Notes under the pieces: model-generated
The model's database searches: none
What the model saw: the letters and a program-made list of their open reading frames with translations, nothing else
Told to the model about the DNA's origin: nothing
Part shown: piece after piece, positions 1-27,771 of the stretch
Layout of the letters: every line of letters starts with the position of its first letter
Position numbering within the stretch: the stretch's first letter is position 1
Assembly: GCF_027922305.1 (NCBI RefSeq)
Contig: NZ_BSFK01000016.1
Coordinates: 616,565-680,564, forward strand
Direction of reading: 5' to 3'
From: Methylopila jiangsuensis
GTDB lineage: Bacteria > Pseudomonadota > Alphaproteobacteria > Rhizobiales > Methylopilaceae
Length of the DNA stretch: 64,000 bases
Made by a program: the position numbers and the translations under genes

Positions 1-1141
1 GCTCGCCGGCGAGCGCAGGTTCCGTCAGCCGGAAGCGGTTCCAGCCCGCGAGCGCCAGCAGCACCCCCACGAGGCCGAGCTTGGCGAGCAGCAGCCGGCC
101 GTAATCCGAGCCCCACAGCGCCGCCATGCTCCCCAGCTGGATCACGGCGAGCGGCGTCCCGGCGAGCACCAGCGCCGCCACCGTCGCCGGGGCCGCGCGG
201 GAGAACCGCGCCAGCGCGGGCCTGGAGAACCGCGTCGCCAGCACGAGCAGCGCGCCCGCCCAGACCGCGGCGGCGACGCCATGCGCCGCCACGGCGGGCA
301 GGGTGGCCCAGCGGGGCGCGGCGGTGGCCGCATGGCCGCTGGCGGCGAGCGCCGCGCCGACGCCGAGAAGGCCGAGCGTGGCGAGACCGGCGGCGGACCC
401 GCCGCGGACCACGAGCGAGCCGGCGGCGGCCAGCAGCGCCAGCCCGGCGAGGAGCGCGGTGCGGACGTAAGTCGTGGCGCCGCCGGCGGCCCAGACCTCC
501 GGCCGGAGCAGCGCGTCGAGCGGAAGCCCCAGCGCGTCGAGCCCCTGAAGCCCGAGCGACAGCGGCGCGGCGACGAGGCCGAGCGCCGCGAGGCCGAAGA
601 CCATGCGGTCCGCGCCTTGGCCGTCGGCCAGCCAGACGCGGGCGAAGGCGGCGCCGGCGCCGAACAGCAGCGCCAGCCACAGCGCGGCGCGGGCGGCCCA
701 GATGGCGCCGGCGAGCGCGGCGTCGCCGGTCTTCGCGGTGGGGGAGGCCTGCGGCGACGCCGCGCCGGCGCCGATGGCGAACGACGTGGTCCCGCCGATC
801 GGATGGCCGTCCTCGGACGCCACGCGCCAGCTCAGAAGATGCGCGCCCGCGGCGAGCGGAGCCGGCAGGCCGATGGTCACCTTGGCGCCGTCCGCCTGCG
901 CCTGAAGCGCCTGCGCCGCGCCGTCCGGCCCCACCAGCCTGAGCGCGAGCGGGGCCACCGGTTCGTTGAAGGTCAGCGTCAGCCGGGCCGGCGCCTGCGC
1001 CAGCACGGCGCCGTCGGCGGGGTCGGCCCGGATCAGCGCCGCATGGGCGTGGGCCGCGCCGATCATCCCCGCCAGCAGGCCGAACGCCGCCGCGGCGCGA
1101 ACCGCGACGGCGATGAGCGTCAGGCGCCGGCGTCCGGTCAC
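1..1141 (-). CDS. CopC-CopD fusion copper protein (3' end beyond window)
   Basis: The protein combines an N-terminal CopC domain with the start of a CopD-type multi-pass membrane domain, as in YcnJ-like copper proteins. The GTG start (1141) overlaps the stop of the upstream DUF1775 gene in a GTGA, so the two are translationally coupled. Residues 1-32 form a signal peptide ending AHA, which leaves a histidine as mature residue 1, the usual CopC Cu(II) ligand. The CopC signature EDGHPIGG follows about 80 residues later. After that the sequence is Ala/Leu/Gly-rich and hydrophobic, consistent with CopD helices. The frame stays open to base 1, so the C-terminus is missing. Known role of the family: periplasmic copper binding and transfer across the inner membrane. 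Import rather than resistance is inferred from the PCuAC and TonB receptor genes upstream in the same operon. Confidence 0.85.
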   Translation of the reverse strand, partial: MTGRRRLTLIAVAVRAAAAFGLLAGMIGAAHAHAALIRADPADGAVLAQAPARLTLTFNEPVAPLALRLVGPDGAAQALQAQADGAKVTIGLPAPLAAGAHLLSWRVASEDGHPIGGTTSFAIGAGAASPQASPTAKTGDAALAGAIWAARAALWLALLFGAGAAFARVWLADGQGADRMVFGLAALGLVAAPLSLGLQGLDALGLPLDALLRPEVWAAGGATTYVRTALLAGLALLAAAGSLVVRGGSAAGLATLGLLGVGAALAASGHAATAAPRWATLPAVAAHGVAAAVWAGALLVLATRFSRPALARFSRAAPATVAALVLAGTPLAVIQLGSMAALWGSDYGRLLLAKLGLVGVLLALAGWNRFRLTEPALAGE

Positions 1142-1668
1142 CGCTTGGGCAGCAGCGTCACGCCGGGAGCCGGCTTGTCCAGCTCCGCGCCGGACTGGCC
1201 GGCCTGCGGGATCTCGATCCAGCGCTCGGCCGCGCCGCCGGGACACTCCTGCACCACAGGGAAGTACAGCTTCTCGCCGGCCGGCAGGTCGGGCGCCAGG
1301 AAGCCGGAGACCACGAACTCGTCGTAGAACTCGTCCGGCAGCTCGCCGCCGCTCCAGATCACCTCGACCACGCCTTCGCTGAGTTTGGCGCCGTGGTAGA
1401 AGTCGTAGGTCCTGGCGTAAGGCCCCTTCACGGTCTTCAGCGTCCAGCCGGGCTTGGGCATCGGCTTCACGGCGATCACGCCCTCAGGGATCTTCACCCG
1501 GAGCGTGGTGGTGGGCGCGCCCTTGCAGCCGTGGGGCGTCTTGAACACCGCCTTGTAGCCGGCGCCCACCGGCGCCTCGCGGGTCTCCAGCGTCACATGG
1601 GCGCTGGCGCCGGCGGCGGGGACCAGCAGGGCCGCCACGGCGGCGGCGCGGATGAGGGCGCGGGTCAT
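1138..1668 (-). CDS. YcnI/DUF1775 periplasmic copper-binding protein
   Basis: A 176-residue secreted protein of the YcnI (DUF1775) family. I chose the ATG at 1668 because it opens directly onto a signal peptide (MTRALIRAAAVAALL, cleavage after AGASA). The mature protein then begins HVTLE; in characterised YcnI the mature N-terminal His is the core of a mono-histidine brace for Cu(II). An upstream in-frame ATG at 1701 would give an unnatural N-terminus. A conserved Trp lies in VIWSGG, with acidic residues in PDEFYDEF, and the PVVQEC segment typical of the family is near the C-terminus. It is third from the end of the copper operon, after PCuAC and directly overlapping CopC-CopD. The likely job is a periplasmic copper chaperone or store. 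Confidence 0.88.
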   Translation of the reverse strand: MTRALIRAAAVAALLVPAAGASAHVTLETREAPVGAGYKAVFKTPHGCKGAPTTTLRVKIPEGVIAVKPMPKPGWTLKTVKGPYARTYDFYHGAKLSEGVVEVIWSGGELPDEFYDEFVVSGFLAPDLPAGEKLYFPVVQECPGGAAERWIEIPQAGQSGAELDKPAPGVTLLPKR

Positions 1669-1690
1669 GCTCGTAATGTCCTGTCTGCGG

Positions 1691-2206
1691 TCAGTGGTCA
1701 TGGCCGTCCTTCGCCCCCGCGTTCGCGGGCGCATCCTTGCCCGGCGCCGTGGCGCCGATGGCCTCCACGGCGAACTCCACGTCCACCGATCCGGCCTTCT
1801 CGAAGGTGAGGCGGCCGGCGAAGCGCTCGCCCTTCGCGAGCGGGCGCTTCAGGTCGAAGAACATGACGTGATAGCCGCCGGGCTTGAACGCCACCTCGCC
1901 ATGGGCCGGCGCGTCCACGCCGTCGGGCAGGGGCCGCATGGTCATGGTCCCGTTGGCGACGGACATCTGGTGGATCTCCGTGCGGCCGGCGATGTCGGAG
2001 GTCACCGACACCAGCCGGTCGCCCTCGGCGCCGGTGTTGCGCAGCGTCAGGTAGCCGCCGGCCACGTTGGCGCCCTTGGGCGTGGCGCGGGACCAGGGAT
2101 GGTCGATCGCGATCGCCCCGGCCTTGTACTCATGGGCGGAAAGCGGCGCCCCCGCCGCGACGAGCGCGGCGAAGGCGAGGGCGGCGAGGGCGCAGGTCCG
2201 TGTCAT
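1691..2206 (-). CDS. PCuAC-type periplasmic copper chaperone
   Basis: A 171-residue protein of the PCuAC (DUF461) family, which carries Cu(I) in the periplasm and can deliver it to the CuA site of cytochrome oxidase. The ATG at 2206 is preferred over the GTG at 2263. It has AGGAAAG about nine bases upstream and starts a signal peptide (MTRTCALAALAF) cleaved near LSAHEY. The Cu(I) ligand pattern of the family is visible: HPW near the N-terminus, then EIHQM, a Met pair in TMTMRP, and GGYHVMFFDL, with a further His-rich tail DGHDH. The gene ends 23 bases before the DUF1775 start and begins 54 bases after the TonB receptor gene. A caa3-type oxidase is encoded at 53111-57783 and would be a plausible client, but that link is inference. 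Confidence 0.9.
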   Translation of the reverse strand: MTRTCALAALAFAALVAAGAPLSAHEYKAGAIAIDHPWSRATPKGANVAGGYLTLRNTGAEGDRLVSVTSDIAGRTEIHQMSVANGTMTMRPLPDGVDAPAHGEVAFKPGGYHVMFFDLKRPLAKGERFAGRLTFEKAGSVDVEFAVEAIGATAPGKDAPANAGAKDGHDH

Positions 2207-2259
2207 GATCGTCGGGCTTTCCTGAACGGGGTTGGGGCCGGCGAGGGCGGGGGCGGCGC

Positions 2260-4437
2260 TCACCAGCGGTACTTCACGCCGGCGTAGACGGCGCGTCCGG
2301 TTCCGGGCTCGTAGAGCGGCGAGTTGAGCGCCGCGCGCTCGGTGATGCTGGCGCTCGAAATGTATTTTTCGTTGGTCAGGTTTCGGCCTTCAACATAGGC
2401 CGAAAGGGCGCCGCCGGCGTCATAGCCCACCTTCGCTCCGAGAAGCGCGTAGGCCTTGGTCTTCTGGGTGTTGGCGTTGTCGACGTAGTAGGCCTCCGGA
2501 ACCCACTCCACGTTCGGCCCGGCGTAGACGCCGGACGGATGCTTGTAGAGCAGCTCCGCGCGCACGTAATGGCGCGGGGCGCCGGGCAGGTCGTTGCCCT
2601 TGATGGACGTCTTGGGGGTGGACGGGCCGCCGGCCGAGACTTTCTGGTCGCCGTCGAAGTAGAAATCGTTGAACGTGTAGGCGACGTTCAGCCAGAGCTT
2701 GTCGACCTCCGCCGGCGCGCCCGCATCGCCCTTGGCGACGAGGCTGGCGTCGACGCCCTTCACGAACAGACCCTTCCACACCGCGGCGCCGAAGCCGAGT
2801 TCGACGCCCTGATGCACGGTCTTATCGAGGTTGACGACCGTGCAGGAGCCGAGATTGGTTCCGTCCTGGCACTGCAACTCGTCCTTGATCTCCATGCGAT
2901 AGAGCGCGACGTCCCAGGTGAAGTCCTCACGCGCGCCGCGCGTGCCGATCTCGTAGGTCCAGGCCTTCTGCGGCTTCGCCAGCGCGGCGCTTGCGAAGCT
3001 GTTCTCGCCGTAGCTTGGAGCCTCCACCGAGCGCGAGACGTTGGCGAACGCCTGCCATGTGGGATCGATGTTCCACAAAAGGCCTATCTTCGGGCTGAAC
3101 TCGGAGAAGCTCTTTGAGCCGGAATCGTCCGCCCGCGTGTCGGACGGGTTGTAGAGCGCGTCGTCGAAGAAGCGGTCTTTCTGGCTGCGCTTGGCGTAGA
3201 GGAACTGGATGCCGGTCACCAGCCCGACGGTCGGCGCCGCGAAGAAGGTGTTCTCGGCGTAGGCCGAGACGTTCCTGGAGGTCTGCTCGGCGTCTGAACG
3301 CTTGCCGCCTTTGCTCCCGCCGACGTTCACATAGTTCCGGGCGTCGTTCTCGCCGTTGTGCAGGTTGAGGCCCGCCACCAGCCGGTTGGCGTGGCCGGCG
3401 ATCTCGCGCTCGTCGGTCACGCGGGCGAAGCCGCCGTAGTCGAAATATTTGTAGTCGAGCCACTGGTAGATCGGGTGTTCCAGATGGCGGCTGACCACGA
3501 AGGCGCCGGCCTCGACCGAGGTGGCGTCGCTCAGGCGGAACGTGGTCTTGTTGGCGAAGCGCAGCGTGTCGATGTTGCGCTCGTAGTCCTGCGCGACATT
3601 GCCGGAGTTGGCCCGCTTCGGGTTCTTCAGCGCCTGCTCTCGGGTCACAGCCCCGGGGATGTTCTGATCCACCGTGTTGGCGTTGAGATAGAACCGCGTC
3701 TCCACGTCCTCCGACAGCCGGTAGCCGATGTTGGCGCTCACCCGGGCGGCGTCGCCGTCGCTGTGGTCGCGGAATCCGTCCGCCCGCTGCCAGGAGCCGG
3801 TGATGAAGTAGTCCGCGTTTCCATGCACGCCGCCGGAGCTCGCCTGCGTCCGAACATGGCCGAAGGAGCCCACGTCGATCCCGCCCTGCGCCACGCTCGC
3901 GATCGGATCGCGGCCCGTGGCGGTGACGAAGTTGATGGCGCCGCCAAGGGCGTTGGCGCCGAAGCGCAGCGCGTTGGCGCCCTTGTAGACCTCCACCAGC
4001 CGGTAGGCGGACGGGTCGATCTCCTGGAAGTCGCCATAGCCGTCGGCGGTGTTGATGGGCACGCCGTCCAGATAGAGCTGGACGCCGCGCAGGTGGAAGT
4101 TGCGCGACAGGCCGGAGCCGCGGATCGAGAGCCGCGTGTCGTCGCCCCATTTGGGCTGGGCGAACACGCCCGGCGTGTAGTCCAGCGCGTCCTTGACGGT
4201 GAGGGCGGGGGAGGTGCGCTTGTAGGTCTCGGCGTCGATCACCTCGACGGCGCCGGGCGTGCGCTCAAGCTCCCGCCGGGTGGCGTCGAGGCCGGGGGAG
4301 GTGAGGCTTAGGGCGCGGGCGCCCGCGCCCTCCACGTTGAGCTCCGGCAGCGGGATCTCGGGTTCGGCGGACTGGGCGTGAGCGAAGGCGGGCGCGCAGA
4401 CGGAGGCGACGCCGGCCAGCAGCAGGGTGCGAAGCAT
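2260..4437 (-). CDS. TonB-dependent outer-membrane receptor
   Basis: A 725-residue TonB-dependent receptor. Residues 1-21 are a signal peptide (cleavage after AFAHA). A plug domain follows (ALDYTPGVF, LSIRGSGLSR, YKGANALRFGANALGGAIN), then a long beta-barrel ending YAGVKYRW, with the expected C-terminal aromatic residue. The size is normal for the family. The sequence itself resembles the FecA-like siderophore receptors and does not reveal the substrate. Every following gene in the operon (PCuAC, DUF1775, CopC-CopD) is a copper protein and the preceding one is DUF2946, so copper or a copper chelate is the best inferred substrate. Iron-siderophore or another metal complex remains possible. Confidence 0.9.
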   Translation of the reverse strand: MLRTLLLAGVASVCAPAFAHAQSAEPEIPLPELNVEGAGARALSLTSPGLDATRRELERTPGAVEVIDAETYKRTSPALTVKDALDYTPGVFAQPKWGDDTRLSIRGSGLSRNFHLRGVQLYLDGVPINTADGYGDFQEIDPSAYRLVEVYKGANALRFGANALGGAINFVTATGRDPIASVAQGGIDVGSFGHVRTQASSGGVHGNADYFITGSWQRADGFRDHSDGDAARVSANIGYRLSEDVETRFYLNANTVDQNIPGAVTREQALKNPKRANSGNVAQDYERNIDTLRFANKTTFRLSDATSVEAGAFVVSRHLEHPIYQWLDYKYFDYGGFARVTDEREIAGHANRLVAGLNLHNGENDARNYVNVGGSKGGKRSDAEQTSRNVSAYAENTFFAAPTVGLVTGIQFLYAKRSQKDRFFDDALYNPSDTRADDSGSKSFSEFSPKIGLLWNIDPTWQAFANVSRSVEAPSYGENSFASAALAKPQKAWTYEIGTRGAREDFTWDVALYRMEIKDELQCQDGTNLGSCTVVNLDKTVHQGVELGFGAAVWKGLFVKGVDASLVAKGDAGAPAEVDKLWLNVAYTFNDFYFDGDQKVSAGGPSTPKTSIKGNDLPGAPRHYVRAELLYKHPSGVYAGPNVEWVPEAYYVDNANTQKTKAYALLGAKVGYDAGGALSAYVEGRNLTNEKYISSASITERAALNSPLYEPGTGRAVYAGVKYRW

Positions 4438-25458: not shown

Positions 25459-27132
25459 ATGGTGCGTGGAACCACGGAAAGCGGCATCGGTCAGTTCGGC
25501 GGCGCGCCAGTCTCCACCGACTGGGGCGGCTCAGCCGCCGCCATGCCGCTCTACTGGATGTATGAGGCGGTGCAAAGTTCGCTCGGGCCCGCCCGCGCCA
25601 TGGCGGAGGCCGGACGCAGCTACTTCAAGAGCCCGGGCAATCCGCTGTCGCAGACACCGTGGGGGCGCAAGGTCAGCGCTCTGTGCGAGGTGTTCGAGCG
25701 CGCCACCCGGCGCTACGGCAAGCCGGAGTTCGGCCTGCCCACCACGCTGGTGCGAGGTCAACGCGTGGTGGTGACCGAACGCACCGTGTGGAGCCGGCCG
25801 TTCTGCAATCTGGTCCATTTCGACCGGGCGCTGCCGCGCGGCGCCCGCAAGCAGTCGAACCTGCTGATCGTGGCGCCCATGTCCGGCCATTACGCCACGC
25901 TGCTGCGCGGCACGGTGGAGGCCATGCTGCCCGACCATGAGGTCTACATCACCGACTGGACCGACGCCCGGCTGACGCCGCTGAGCGAGGGCGCGTTCGA
26001 TCTGGACGACTACATCGACTATCTGATCTCCATCTTCCACTTCCTGAAGGGCGACTGCCACGTGATGGCGGTGTGCCAGCCGGCGGTGCCAGTGCTGGCG
26101 GCGATCGCCCGCATGGAGGCGGAGAACGACCCCTATACGCCGCATTCCATGACGCTGATGGGCGGGCCGATCGACACCCGGGAGAACCCGACCGCGGTTA
26201 ACCAGGTGGCGATCGACCGCGGCATCGACTGGTTCCGCTCCAACGTCATCACCATGGTGCCCTGGCCGCATCCGGGCGTGATGCGGCAGGTCTATCCGGG
26301 CTTCCTGCAGCTCACCGGCTTCGTGTCCATGAACCTCGACCGGCATCTCTCTGCCCACAACGACTTCTTCAACCACCTGGTGGAGGGCGACGGCGACTCC
26401 GCCGAGAAGCACCGCGAGTTCTACGACGAGTATCTCGCCGTCATGGACCTCACCGCGGAGTTCTACCTGCAGACGGTGGACACGGTGTTTATCCGCCACG
26501 CCCTGCCGAAGGGCGAGATGACCCATCGCGGCAAGCCGGTGGACTGTTCGAAGATCACCCGCTGCGCGCTGATGACGGTGGAGGGCGAGCGCGACGACAT
26601 CTCCGGCGTCGGCCAGACCAAGGCGGCGCACACGCTGTGCTCCAGCCTCTCCGACGACAAGCGCGCCCATTACCTGCAGGAAAAGGTGGGCCATTACGGC
26701 GTGTTCAACGGCTCGCGCTTCCGGGCCGAGATCGCGCCGCGCATCCACGACTTCATCCTGTCGAACGAGCCGGGGCTCGCCCGCGCCCAGCCCGCGGCGA
26801 AGCCGGCGCCCCAGCCGGCCGAACCCGTGACGCCCGCGGACGCGGCGGCGCCGGATCTGTTCCCGGAGACGGCCGCCGCCGCCGTGGCCGCGAAACCCGC
26901 GCCCGCCGAGCCCGGCAGGCATGCGGACGACCTGACCCGGATCGACGGCGTCGGCCCGAAGCTGCAGCAGCTGCTGAACGAGGCGGGCATCTTCCACTTC
27001 TGGCAGCTCGCCCGCCTGACCGACGAGGAGCGCGCGGCGCTCGACGCCAAGATGACGCCCCCCGGCCGCGTCAGCCGCGAACGCTGGGTGGAGCAGGCCA
27101 GCGCGCTTGCGGAGGCCGGCGAGGCGGATTGA
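25459..27132 (+). CDS. phaZ: Intracellular polyhydroxyalkanoate depolymerase with C-terminal helix-hairpin-helix domain
   Basis: A 557-residue protein. Residues 1-430 match the intracellular PHB depolymerase family: the N-terminal PLYWMYEAVQSSLGPAR, a LIVAPMSGHYATLLRGTVE beta-strand/oxyanion region, the active-site cysteine C206 in MAVCQPAVP, and VGHYGVFNGSRFR carrying the catalytic His. A low-complexity Ala/Pro linker (about 435-485) leads to DDLTRIDGVGPKLQQLLNEA (490-509), a helix-hairpin-helix unit. The enzyme releases 3-hydroxybutyrate from storage granules. AAGGA precedes the ATG by about eight bases; open frame upstream belongs to the divergent kinase region. phaB, phaA and phaR lie nearby. 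Confidence 0.9.
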   Translation: MVRGTTESGIGQFGGAPVSTDWGGSAAAMPLYWMYEAVQSSLGPARAMAEAGRSYFKSPGNPLSQTPWGRKVSALCEVFERATRRYGKPEFGLPTTLVRGQRVVVTERTVWSRPFCNLVHFDRALPRGARKQSNLLIVAPMSGHYATLLRGTVEAMLPDHEVYITDWTDARLTPLSEGAFDLDDYIDYLISIFHFLKGDCHVMAVCQPAVPVLAAIARMEAENDPYTPHSMTLMGGPIDTRENPTAVNQVAIDRGIDWFRSNVITMVPWPHPGVMRQVYPGFLQLTGFVSMNLDRHLSAHNDFFNHLVEGDGDSAEKHREFYDEYLAVMDLTAEFYLQTVDTVFIRHALPKGEMTHRGKPVDCSKITRCALMTVEGERDDISGVGQTKAAHTLCSSLSDDKRAHYLQEKVGHYGVFNGSRFRAEIAPRIHDFILSNEPGLARAQPAAKPAPQPAEPVTPADAAAPDLFPETAAAAVAAKPAPAEPGRHADDLTRIDGVGPKLQQLLNEAGIFHFWQLARLTDEERAALDAKMTPPGRVSRERWVEQASALAEAGEAD

Positions 27133-27197: not shown

Positions 27198-27366
27198 CGT
27201 TGCGCCGGCCATAGCGGTGCGCGTCCGGCCGAACGACGCCGCGCGCAGGAGCGACCGGGCGTCATATGATCTTTTATTCTTTTCTTATTTTTTAGCTTGC
27301 CTTAGATAGCGATTACCGAGGCCGTCGGCCAAAGCGCGGAATGTCTTATTATTTTTGGAGCCTGTC

Positions 27367-27771
27367 ATGAAAACTCTGAGCCTGCTCGCCGGCGCCGCCC
27401 TGCTGTTCGCCGTGGCTCCCGCCATGGCGCAGACCATCCCCTCGGGCGCCGATGTGCTGAAGACCTACAACAAGGACGGCGACGACACGCTGGAGCTCGC
27501 CGAGGTGATCCACCTCTCCGCCAAGCTCTACAATGAGATCAACCCGGACGGGGATTCGACCCTCGAGCCGGACGAGACCAAGGGCCGCCTGACCGCCTCC
27601 GACTGGAAGAAGGCCAACAAGGACGGCGACAAGACCCTCGAGGTCGACGAGTGGCTGTCGATCGCCCGCAAGCGCTTCGCCGCCGCGGACAAGAACAAGG
27701 ACGGCAAGCTCACCGCCGCCGAACTCGACTCCAAGGCCGGCCGCGGCGTGGTGGTCCTGATCGCCAAGTAA
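27367..27771 (+). CDS. lanM: Lanmodulin (periplasmic lanthanide-binding EF-hand protein, Hansschlegelia type)
   Basis: A 134-residue secreted protein. Signal peptide residues 1-21 (cleavage after AMA). Four EF-hand loops follow at 35-46 (NKDGDDTLELAE), 59-70 (NPDGDSTLEPDE), 84-95 (NKDGDKTLEVDE) and 108-119 (DKNKDGKLTAAE). Loops start only 24-25 residues apart, giving the 12-13-residue spacing that marks lanmodulins rather than calmodulin-like proteins. The length and the C-terminal AAELDSKAGRGVVVLI match lanmodulin closely. Only loop 2 has Pro at position 2, as I recall for the dimerising Hansschlegelia quercus lanmodulin. It binds rare-earth ions in the periplasm and is tied to lanthanide-dependent methanol oxidation. 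TGGAG lies six bases before the ATG. Confidence 0.92.
   Translation: MKTLSLLAGAALLFAVAPAMAQTIPSGADVLKTYNKDGDDTLELAEVIHLSAKLYNEINPDGDSTLEPDETKGRLTASDWKKANKDGDKTLEVDEWLSIARKRFAAADKNKDGKLTAAELDSKAGRGVVVLIAK

Follow-up and report, generated by a model that had tools for sequence, protein, structure and literature searches.

A Hans-type lanmodulin gene in Methylopila jiangsuensis and a candidate DNA element shared with xoxF

The lanM gene and its surroundings

The stretch of Methylopila jiangsuensis DNA analysed here, referred to as the window, is 64,000 nt in length and contains a lanmodulin gene (lanM) of the Hans type. The gene, its leader and its upstream neighbour comprise the following features:

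25531..27132, + strand: PHB depolymerase gene phaZ, next gene upstream of lanM, start uncertain (TIGR01849 628.7 bits, cut-off 300.75)
27281..27289, + strand: TTTCTTATT, a second AT-rich block of the lanM leader, looser and farther upstream, from the leader alignment
27345..27353, + strand: leader element CTTATTATT, immediately before the ribosome binding site and identical in 13/13 lanM leaders of the genus
27357..27360, + strand: GGAG ribosome binding site of lanM, by eye
27367..27771, + strand: lanM, 134 aa, Hans-type lanmodulin, from sequence, tree and predicted fold
27367..27429, + strand: lanmodulin signal peptide, residues 1-21, AMA|Q, by eye
27469..27504, + strand: EF1 loop NKDGDDTLELAE, residues 35-46, from alignment; N1, D3, D5, E9 and E12 as in Hans-LanM EF1
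27541..27576, + strand: EF2 loop NPDGDSTLEPDE, residues 59-70, the sole loop with Pro at position 2, from alignment
27616..27651, + strand: EF3 loop NKDGDKTLEVDE, residues 84-95, from alignment
27667..27669, + strand: R101, equivalent of the dimer-interface arginine Arg100 of Hans-LanM, from alignment
27688..27723, + strand: EF4 loop DKNKDGKLTAAE, residues 108-119, from alignment; ligand letters the same as in Hans-LanM EF4

The reading frame starts with ATG, 6 nt downstream of GGAG; a start at the in-frame TTG at 27355 would make the protein 4 residues longer. The N-terminus, MKTLSLLAGAALLFAVAPAMA|Q, is signal-peptide-like by eye, from which export of the protein to the periplasm would be expected. 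The four EF loops begin at N35, N59, N84 and D108, spaced 24, 25 and 24 residues apart, and EF1 and EF3 both open with NKDGD. All of this agrees with a preliminary description of the locus, which had reported 134 residues, a signal peptide, four 12-residue loops with starts 24-25 apart, proline at position 2 in the second loop only and two NKDGD loops. The C-terminus given there is likewise as quoted, except that two further residues, AK, follow it. An antisense ORF of 155 aa overlaps the gene. No sigma-70-type consensus promoter was found, and no Rfam family covers either the lanM leader region or the region upstream of xoxF. A search of the genome (3.7 Mb, 18 contigs) returned one good copy of lanM, the runner-up having an E value of 0.08.

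In 13/13 genomes of the genus lanM is preceded by a phaZ homologue in the same orientation, with 171-1062 nt between the match edges, and genes matching phaB, phaA and phaR by Pfam domain come next in the window. The upstream gene was also considered as a PHB synthase (phaC), which was rejected because both Pfam and NCBIfam identify it as a depolymerase. PHB granules are cytoplasmic. As lanmodulin looks exported, we make no claim that lanM and PHB are functionally linked. The gene preceding lanM in Xanthobacter NM-59 is a DUF3141 alpha/beta hydrolase, whose similarity to phaZ is doubtful (28.5 bits).

Lanmodulin matches were found in 13 of 18 genomes searched within the family. These are the 13/13 genomes of its own genus (M. 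jiangsuensis included, one of them frameshifted), against 0/5 in two other genera. At E 1e-6, 53 of 397 genomes sampled across the order gave matches, Mex-type proteins included, while the plasmid search gave a single match, 37.8% identical, from Methylobacterium nodulans. Hansschlegelia beijingensis carries a second lanM copy (L005 6163-10885) besides one adjoining phaZ (L045, same species inferred). The neighbours of this second copy are genes for a periplasmic binding protein, an ABC ATPase, a DUF6925 protein and a PepSY protein, possibly a metal or metallophore uptake cluster. Outside the genus, some lanM neighbours (L023 in genome G010, L027-L030 and L032) resemble parts of a PQQ alcohol dehydrogenase locus when their translations are inspected by eye, namely either a beta-propeller together with a substrate-binding protein, or a PQQ dehydrogenase encoded in the opposite orientation.

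Family placement, metal ligands and dimer network

Published statements on Hans-LanM cited below are from the available portion of Mattocks et al. 2023 (PMC10232371). The best match in a PDB sequence search was Hans-LanM (8dq2/8fnr, E 8.9e-46), followed by a lanthanum-bound protein from Ancylobacter lacus (9pi2, E 5.7e-44) and Mex-LanM (6mi5, E 1.1e-15; 8fns, E 1.3e-15); the next match after the lanmodulins was a plant calcium-binding protein at E 0.0028. Over 109 mature positions the M. jiangsuensis protein is 86% identical to the lanmodulin of Methylopila turkensis and 71% identical (77/109) to Hans-LanM of Hansschlegelia quercus, as against 37% over 101 positions for Mex-LanM. It thus exceeds the 65% identity used as the threshold for joining the Hans-LanM cluster, a comparison made here with pairwise identities over the 109 mature positions and not with a rebuilt version of the published network. 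It shows the sequence hallmarks of lanmodulins given by Mattocks et al. 2023: four EF hands within 134 residues (the hallmark being fewer than 200), gaps of 12, 13 and 12 residues between neighbouring loops (12-13) and proline at position 2 in EF2 (at least one loop). A picomolar response to lanthanides, selective over Ca, counts as a further hallmark in that work. Given the E value to Hans-LanM, a dN/dS of 0.31 against M. turkensis (NG86, 109 codons) and the 13/13 matches within the genus, the reading frame and its EF-loop pattern are not due to chance.

Phylogenetic analysis set the 17 Hans-type rows apart from all others by a branch that had support values of 99/100 and was present in 100% of 200 bootstrap trees, with the M. 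jiangsuensis protein as sister to that of M. turkensis (95/84). In a first tree the end branch of one divergent sequence (L038) exceeded 2 changes per column, and there was a warning of long branches meeting; the final tree was rebuilt without it and with three bacterial EF-hand rows as outgroup, and a frameshifted sequence (L011) was left out of both trees. The Mex-type rows did not form one group in the tree with the EF-hand rows (2 changes). Taken together with the loop residues and the predicted fold described below, these comparisons support assigning the protein to the Hans cluster of lanmodulins defined in the literature, in keeping with the proline-poor Hans branch named in the preliminary description. 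Its suggested status as a new member is weaker, since Methylopila is already among the genera listed for the 20-sequence Hans cluster (PMC10232371); the protein, or a near copy of it, may have been counted there. In short, the lanmodulin family concerned is known and valuable, and the protein is an ordinary member of it.

The NCBIfam lanmodulin model (NF053806) gave the protein 97 bits, below the cut-off of 135. Hans-LanM (102.5), M. turkensis (102.2) and Xanthobacter agilis (99.2) score similarly, and one Mex-type row scores 174.2. The cut-off therefore excludes 4/4 of the Hans-branch proteins tested, the verified Hans-LanM among them, and the Hans branch may be under-annotated by NCBI's curated model.

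Generic Pfam EF-hand models also match the protein (EF-hand_6, 2.1e-09), as they might a calcium EF-hand protein akin to calmodulin, calerythrin or CREC proteins. Loop spacing alone is not diagnostic in this respect, because another EF-hand protein in the same genome (L066) has loop pairs 24 residues apart. However, in a form of the family-tree check proposed in the preliminary description, the M. jiangsuensis protein did not group with the calcium-type rows, which were the three bacterial EF-hand rows, all of them long branches; they split from it at 98/93. The protein also carries N1/E9 ligands in EF1-EF3. The AlphaFold2 monomer (pLDDT 90.5, pTM 0.83, from 8 aligned sequences) superimposes on La-bound Hans-LanM 8dq2 with a TM score of 0.93 and an rmsd of 1.0 Angstrom, and a structure search gave Z 21.0 to 8dq2 as compared with 7.9 for the best non-lanmodulin, calcium sensors scoring 7.9 or less. 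On the tree and the fold-match Z scores we rejected a calcium EF-hand identity, which we regard as extremely improbable.

All loops show the residue pattern of the Hans cluster, with Asn1 and Glu9 in EF1-EF3 and D1-N3-D5-E12 in EF4. In Hans-LanM the residues of the N1/E9 pattern hold La in EF1-EF3, the model of the La crystal has Na at EF4, and loop position 7 is a ligand through its backbone carbonyl (PMC10232371). Within the Hans-LanM dimer Arg100 is in contact with Asp85 and Glu91 of the partner subunit, buttressed by its Asp93 (PMC10232371). D86, E92 and D94 of EF3 are the counterparts of these three acidic residues, and R101 is that of the arginine. In an alignment of 30 rows, which left out duplicates of named genome records (L013, L015, L016, L020, L021, L025) and near-copies among the Mex-type loci (L026, L027, L029, L031, L033), equivalents of D85, E91, D93 and R100 are present in 17/17 Hans-type rows and 0/11 Mex-type rows. 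Of the remaining two rows, the frameshifted L011 lacks the four residues and the divergent L038 has them. The alignment rules out different metal ligands or loss of the dimer arginine.

These data bear on two differences from Hans-LanM that had been proposed at the outset. The EF1 loop does differ, at positions 4, 7 and 10, with side-chain ligands unchanged. The run R101-K102-R103 before EF4 corresponds to R100-T101-R102 in Hans-LanM, so that the only change is at K102; R101 is the dimer arginine and is conserved. With these ligands spared and R101 conserved, the altered metal selectivity suggested on those grounds finds no support. A related reading is that this Hans-clade lanmodulin binds rare earths but forms no dimer, or has another light/heavy preference, through drift at the interface or in the second shell. 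Some 29% of the mature positions differ from Hans-LanM, candidate positions for such drift include EF3 position 6, K102 and A105-A106, and our interface comparison comprises the four network residues, with the hydrophobic part of the interface outside it. Against such drift, all ligands and all four network residues are kept and the monomer model closely superimposes on Hans-LanM; we consider it unlikely. Nevertheless, the dimer network alone is no proof of selectivity, because the R100K substitution in Hans-LanM barely changed its affinity for Nd or Dy (PMC10232371).

Several relatives deviate from the Hans pattern. One protein of the same genus (L024 1501-1890, genome G252) belongs to the Hans clade, in which it is the first branch (91/90 for the rest), and combines Mex-like EF1 and EF4 loops (DGDKDGTLDIAE, DPDKDGTLDAKE) with Hans-like EF2 and EF3, as if the Hans ligands had arisen in EF2 and EF3 before EF1. 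L038 (1501-1869, genome G210) is a very divergent four-EF protein with 33% identity to that of M. jiangsuensis; it retains EF3 E9/D11 and Arg100-like residues, and its EF2 is degenerate (DRKGDGRIPFAD). In Chenggangzhangella methanolivorans CHL1 (L011 10001-10267, the same place as L025) the lanM frame breaks inside EF3, owing to either a pseudogene or a sequencing error; the stated completeness of this genome is 88%, with 5% contamination.

A candidate element shared by lanM and xoxF

Alignment of the 13 lanM leaders of the genus revealed one invariant run, CTTATTATT, whose end is 13-18 nt away from the start codon. When the leaders were put through 500 dinucleotide shuffles, the longest word shared by all 13 had 3 or 4 bases. 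Because the lanM leaders are orthologous, this invariance speaks of conservation and not of function. The reversed 8-mer, ATAATAAG, is found at -295 to -303 of the best-scoring xoxF in 13/13 genomes (start assumed). Sites of the element are located at window 27345-27353, L069 11184-11192 and L088-L106. The 13 genomes hold 24 xoxF-like genes; among the 11 that are not the best-scoring copy, AATAATAAG occurs twice in each of 2, and 9 are without the element.

The xoxF upstream block around ATAATAAG is strongly conserved. When the xoxF columns were shuffled in blocks of 20, an 8-mer shared with the lanM leaders was common to the 13 genomes in 1/2000 trials, a figure uncorrected for xoxF having been met by search and for promoter A+T bias beyond the block. 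Genome-wide counts in M. jiangsuensis gave no clear excess over control words: 4 for CTTATTATT against 3 for its reversed control, 3 against 1 for TCTTATTATT and 3 against 2 for TTTCTTATT. Among the four CTTATTATT sites one is the lanM leader, one lies reversed about 300 nt upstream of xoxF, and two are, by eye, beside 6-phosphogluconate-dehydrogenase-like/MoxR-like and cupredoxin-like/xseA genes, with no clear link. Requiring GGAG after CTTATTATT in 7 genomes of the genus returned 6 sites in 5 genomes versus 3 control matches, comprising 5 lanM leaders and 1 site upstream of an xoxF copy in genome G215.

The element is absent from the region upstream of mxaF in M. jiangsuensis, from the 260 nt upstream of four Hans-type lanM genes outside the phaZ setting (L005, L009, L010, L023) and from the 400 nt upstream of lanM at 16/16 further loci (L026-L041, 15 Mex-type and L038). 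Among the papers available for searching, none contained both xoxF and the word AATAATAAG, and no such site is described in the available portions of two papers bearing on the xoxF promoter (PMC9260416, PMC7391723). Expression of lanM is MxcQE-dependent in M. aquaticum 22A (PMC9260416, available portion), which makes a regulator shared with methanol oxidation plausible. We therefore put forward CTTATTATT/ATAATAAG as a candidate shared regulatory element. That it ties lanM and xoxF of the genus together as the site bound by a regulator that responds to lanthanide or methanol is a tentative proposal, more doubtful than probable. Any novelty at this locus may lie here. If functional, the element would offer a concrete site for testing lanthanide gene regulation, and rare-earth buffering and a rare-earth enzyme would be switched together.

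Proposed role and comparison with known lanmodulins

The genome encodes an XoxF whose best PDB match is XoxF 6oc5 (1106 bits) and whose motif, HDEWDYDG, has an extra aspartate, alongside an MxaF with HDEWDYAG and an ExaA-like enzyme with NDAWDYSG. The second aspartate of HDEWDYDG is a mark of lanthanide use. A table entry for PedH, Asp323/Asp325, agrees with this (PMC11845868, available portion). Twenty TonB plug-domain matches provide a candidate pool for a lanthanide receptor. Within the window a TonB receptor gene adjoins those for a PCu(A)C copper chaperone and a DUF1775 protein (1141-4437, - strand), probably a copper uptake set.

We consider it very probable that lanM encodes the exported Hans-type lanmodulin of a Methylopila-Hansschlegelia methylotroph, which is predicted to form a light-rare-earth dimer and would most likely act as a periplasmic buffer for XoxF. 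After export, EF1-EF3 would wrap rare-earth ions in the periplasm through N1, D3, D5, E9 and E12, turning a loose protein into a compact helical bundle, with EF4 as a presumed weak metal site. With a light rare earth at EF3, R101 would reach D86, E92 and D94 of a second subunit to give a head-to-tail dimer, which heavier ions would weaken. The protein is accordingly predicted by analogy to behave as Hans-LanM does, light-rare-earth binding favouring the dimer. Affinity, selectivity and dimerization are all carried over from Hans-LanM, and its published values (La 68 pM, Nd 91 pM, Dy 2.6 nM, Ca 60 micromolar; PMC10232371) serve here as predictions.

As for the cell, the most likely role would be to buffer periplasmic lanthanide, pass it to XoxF and limit its toxicity, a view drawn from work on M. 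aquaticum 22A. In that strain La induces lanM, and when lanM is lost La is deposited in the periplasm and the membrane is impaired (PMC9260416). A buffer and carrier is thus likelier than an essential component, and the role stays uncertain, since methylotrophic growth of M. aquaticum 22A does not need lanM (PMC9260416). The protein is a close natural variant in a family that is useful in practice for rare-earth separation, and with ligands and dimer network fixed and their surroundings varied it would suit fine comparisons of selectivity.

Compared with known lanmodulins, the protein shares four short-spaced EF loops and the overall fold with Mex-LanM of Methylorubrum extorquens (6mi5, 8fns). 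However, Mex-LanM has Pro2 and Asp9 in every loop and Asp1 in EF1-EF3, lacks the R100 network and is published as a monomer (PMC10232371), and its gene lies in the lut cluster (PMC7391723, available portion) and not beside phaZ. The Ancylobacter lacus protein 9pi2 is 67% identical over 109 positions, with the same ligand and network residues, yet second-shell positions of EF1, EF2 and EF3 differ. The genus is named by Mattocks et al. 2023 (PMC10232371), the only paper found in our literature search for lanmodulin together with Ancylobacter. The closest characterized system is Hans-LanM (8dq2, 8fnr). Besides the loop changes in EF1 noted above, the M. jiangsuensis protein departs from it at positions 6, 10 and 11 of EF2, 6 and 10 of EF3 and 2 of EF4, and at K102, none of these substitutions falling on a side-chain ligand. 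The ligand letters of EF1-EF4, the proline in EF2 only, the R100 network and the fold are the same in both, and the Hans-LanM gene, like lanM here, has phaZ upstream.
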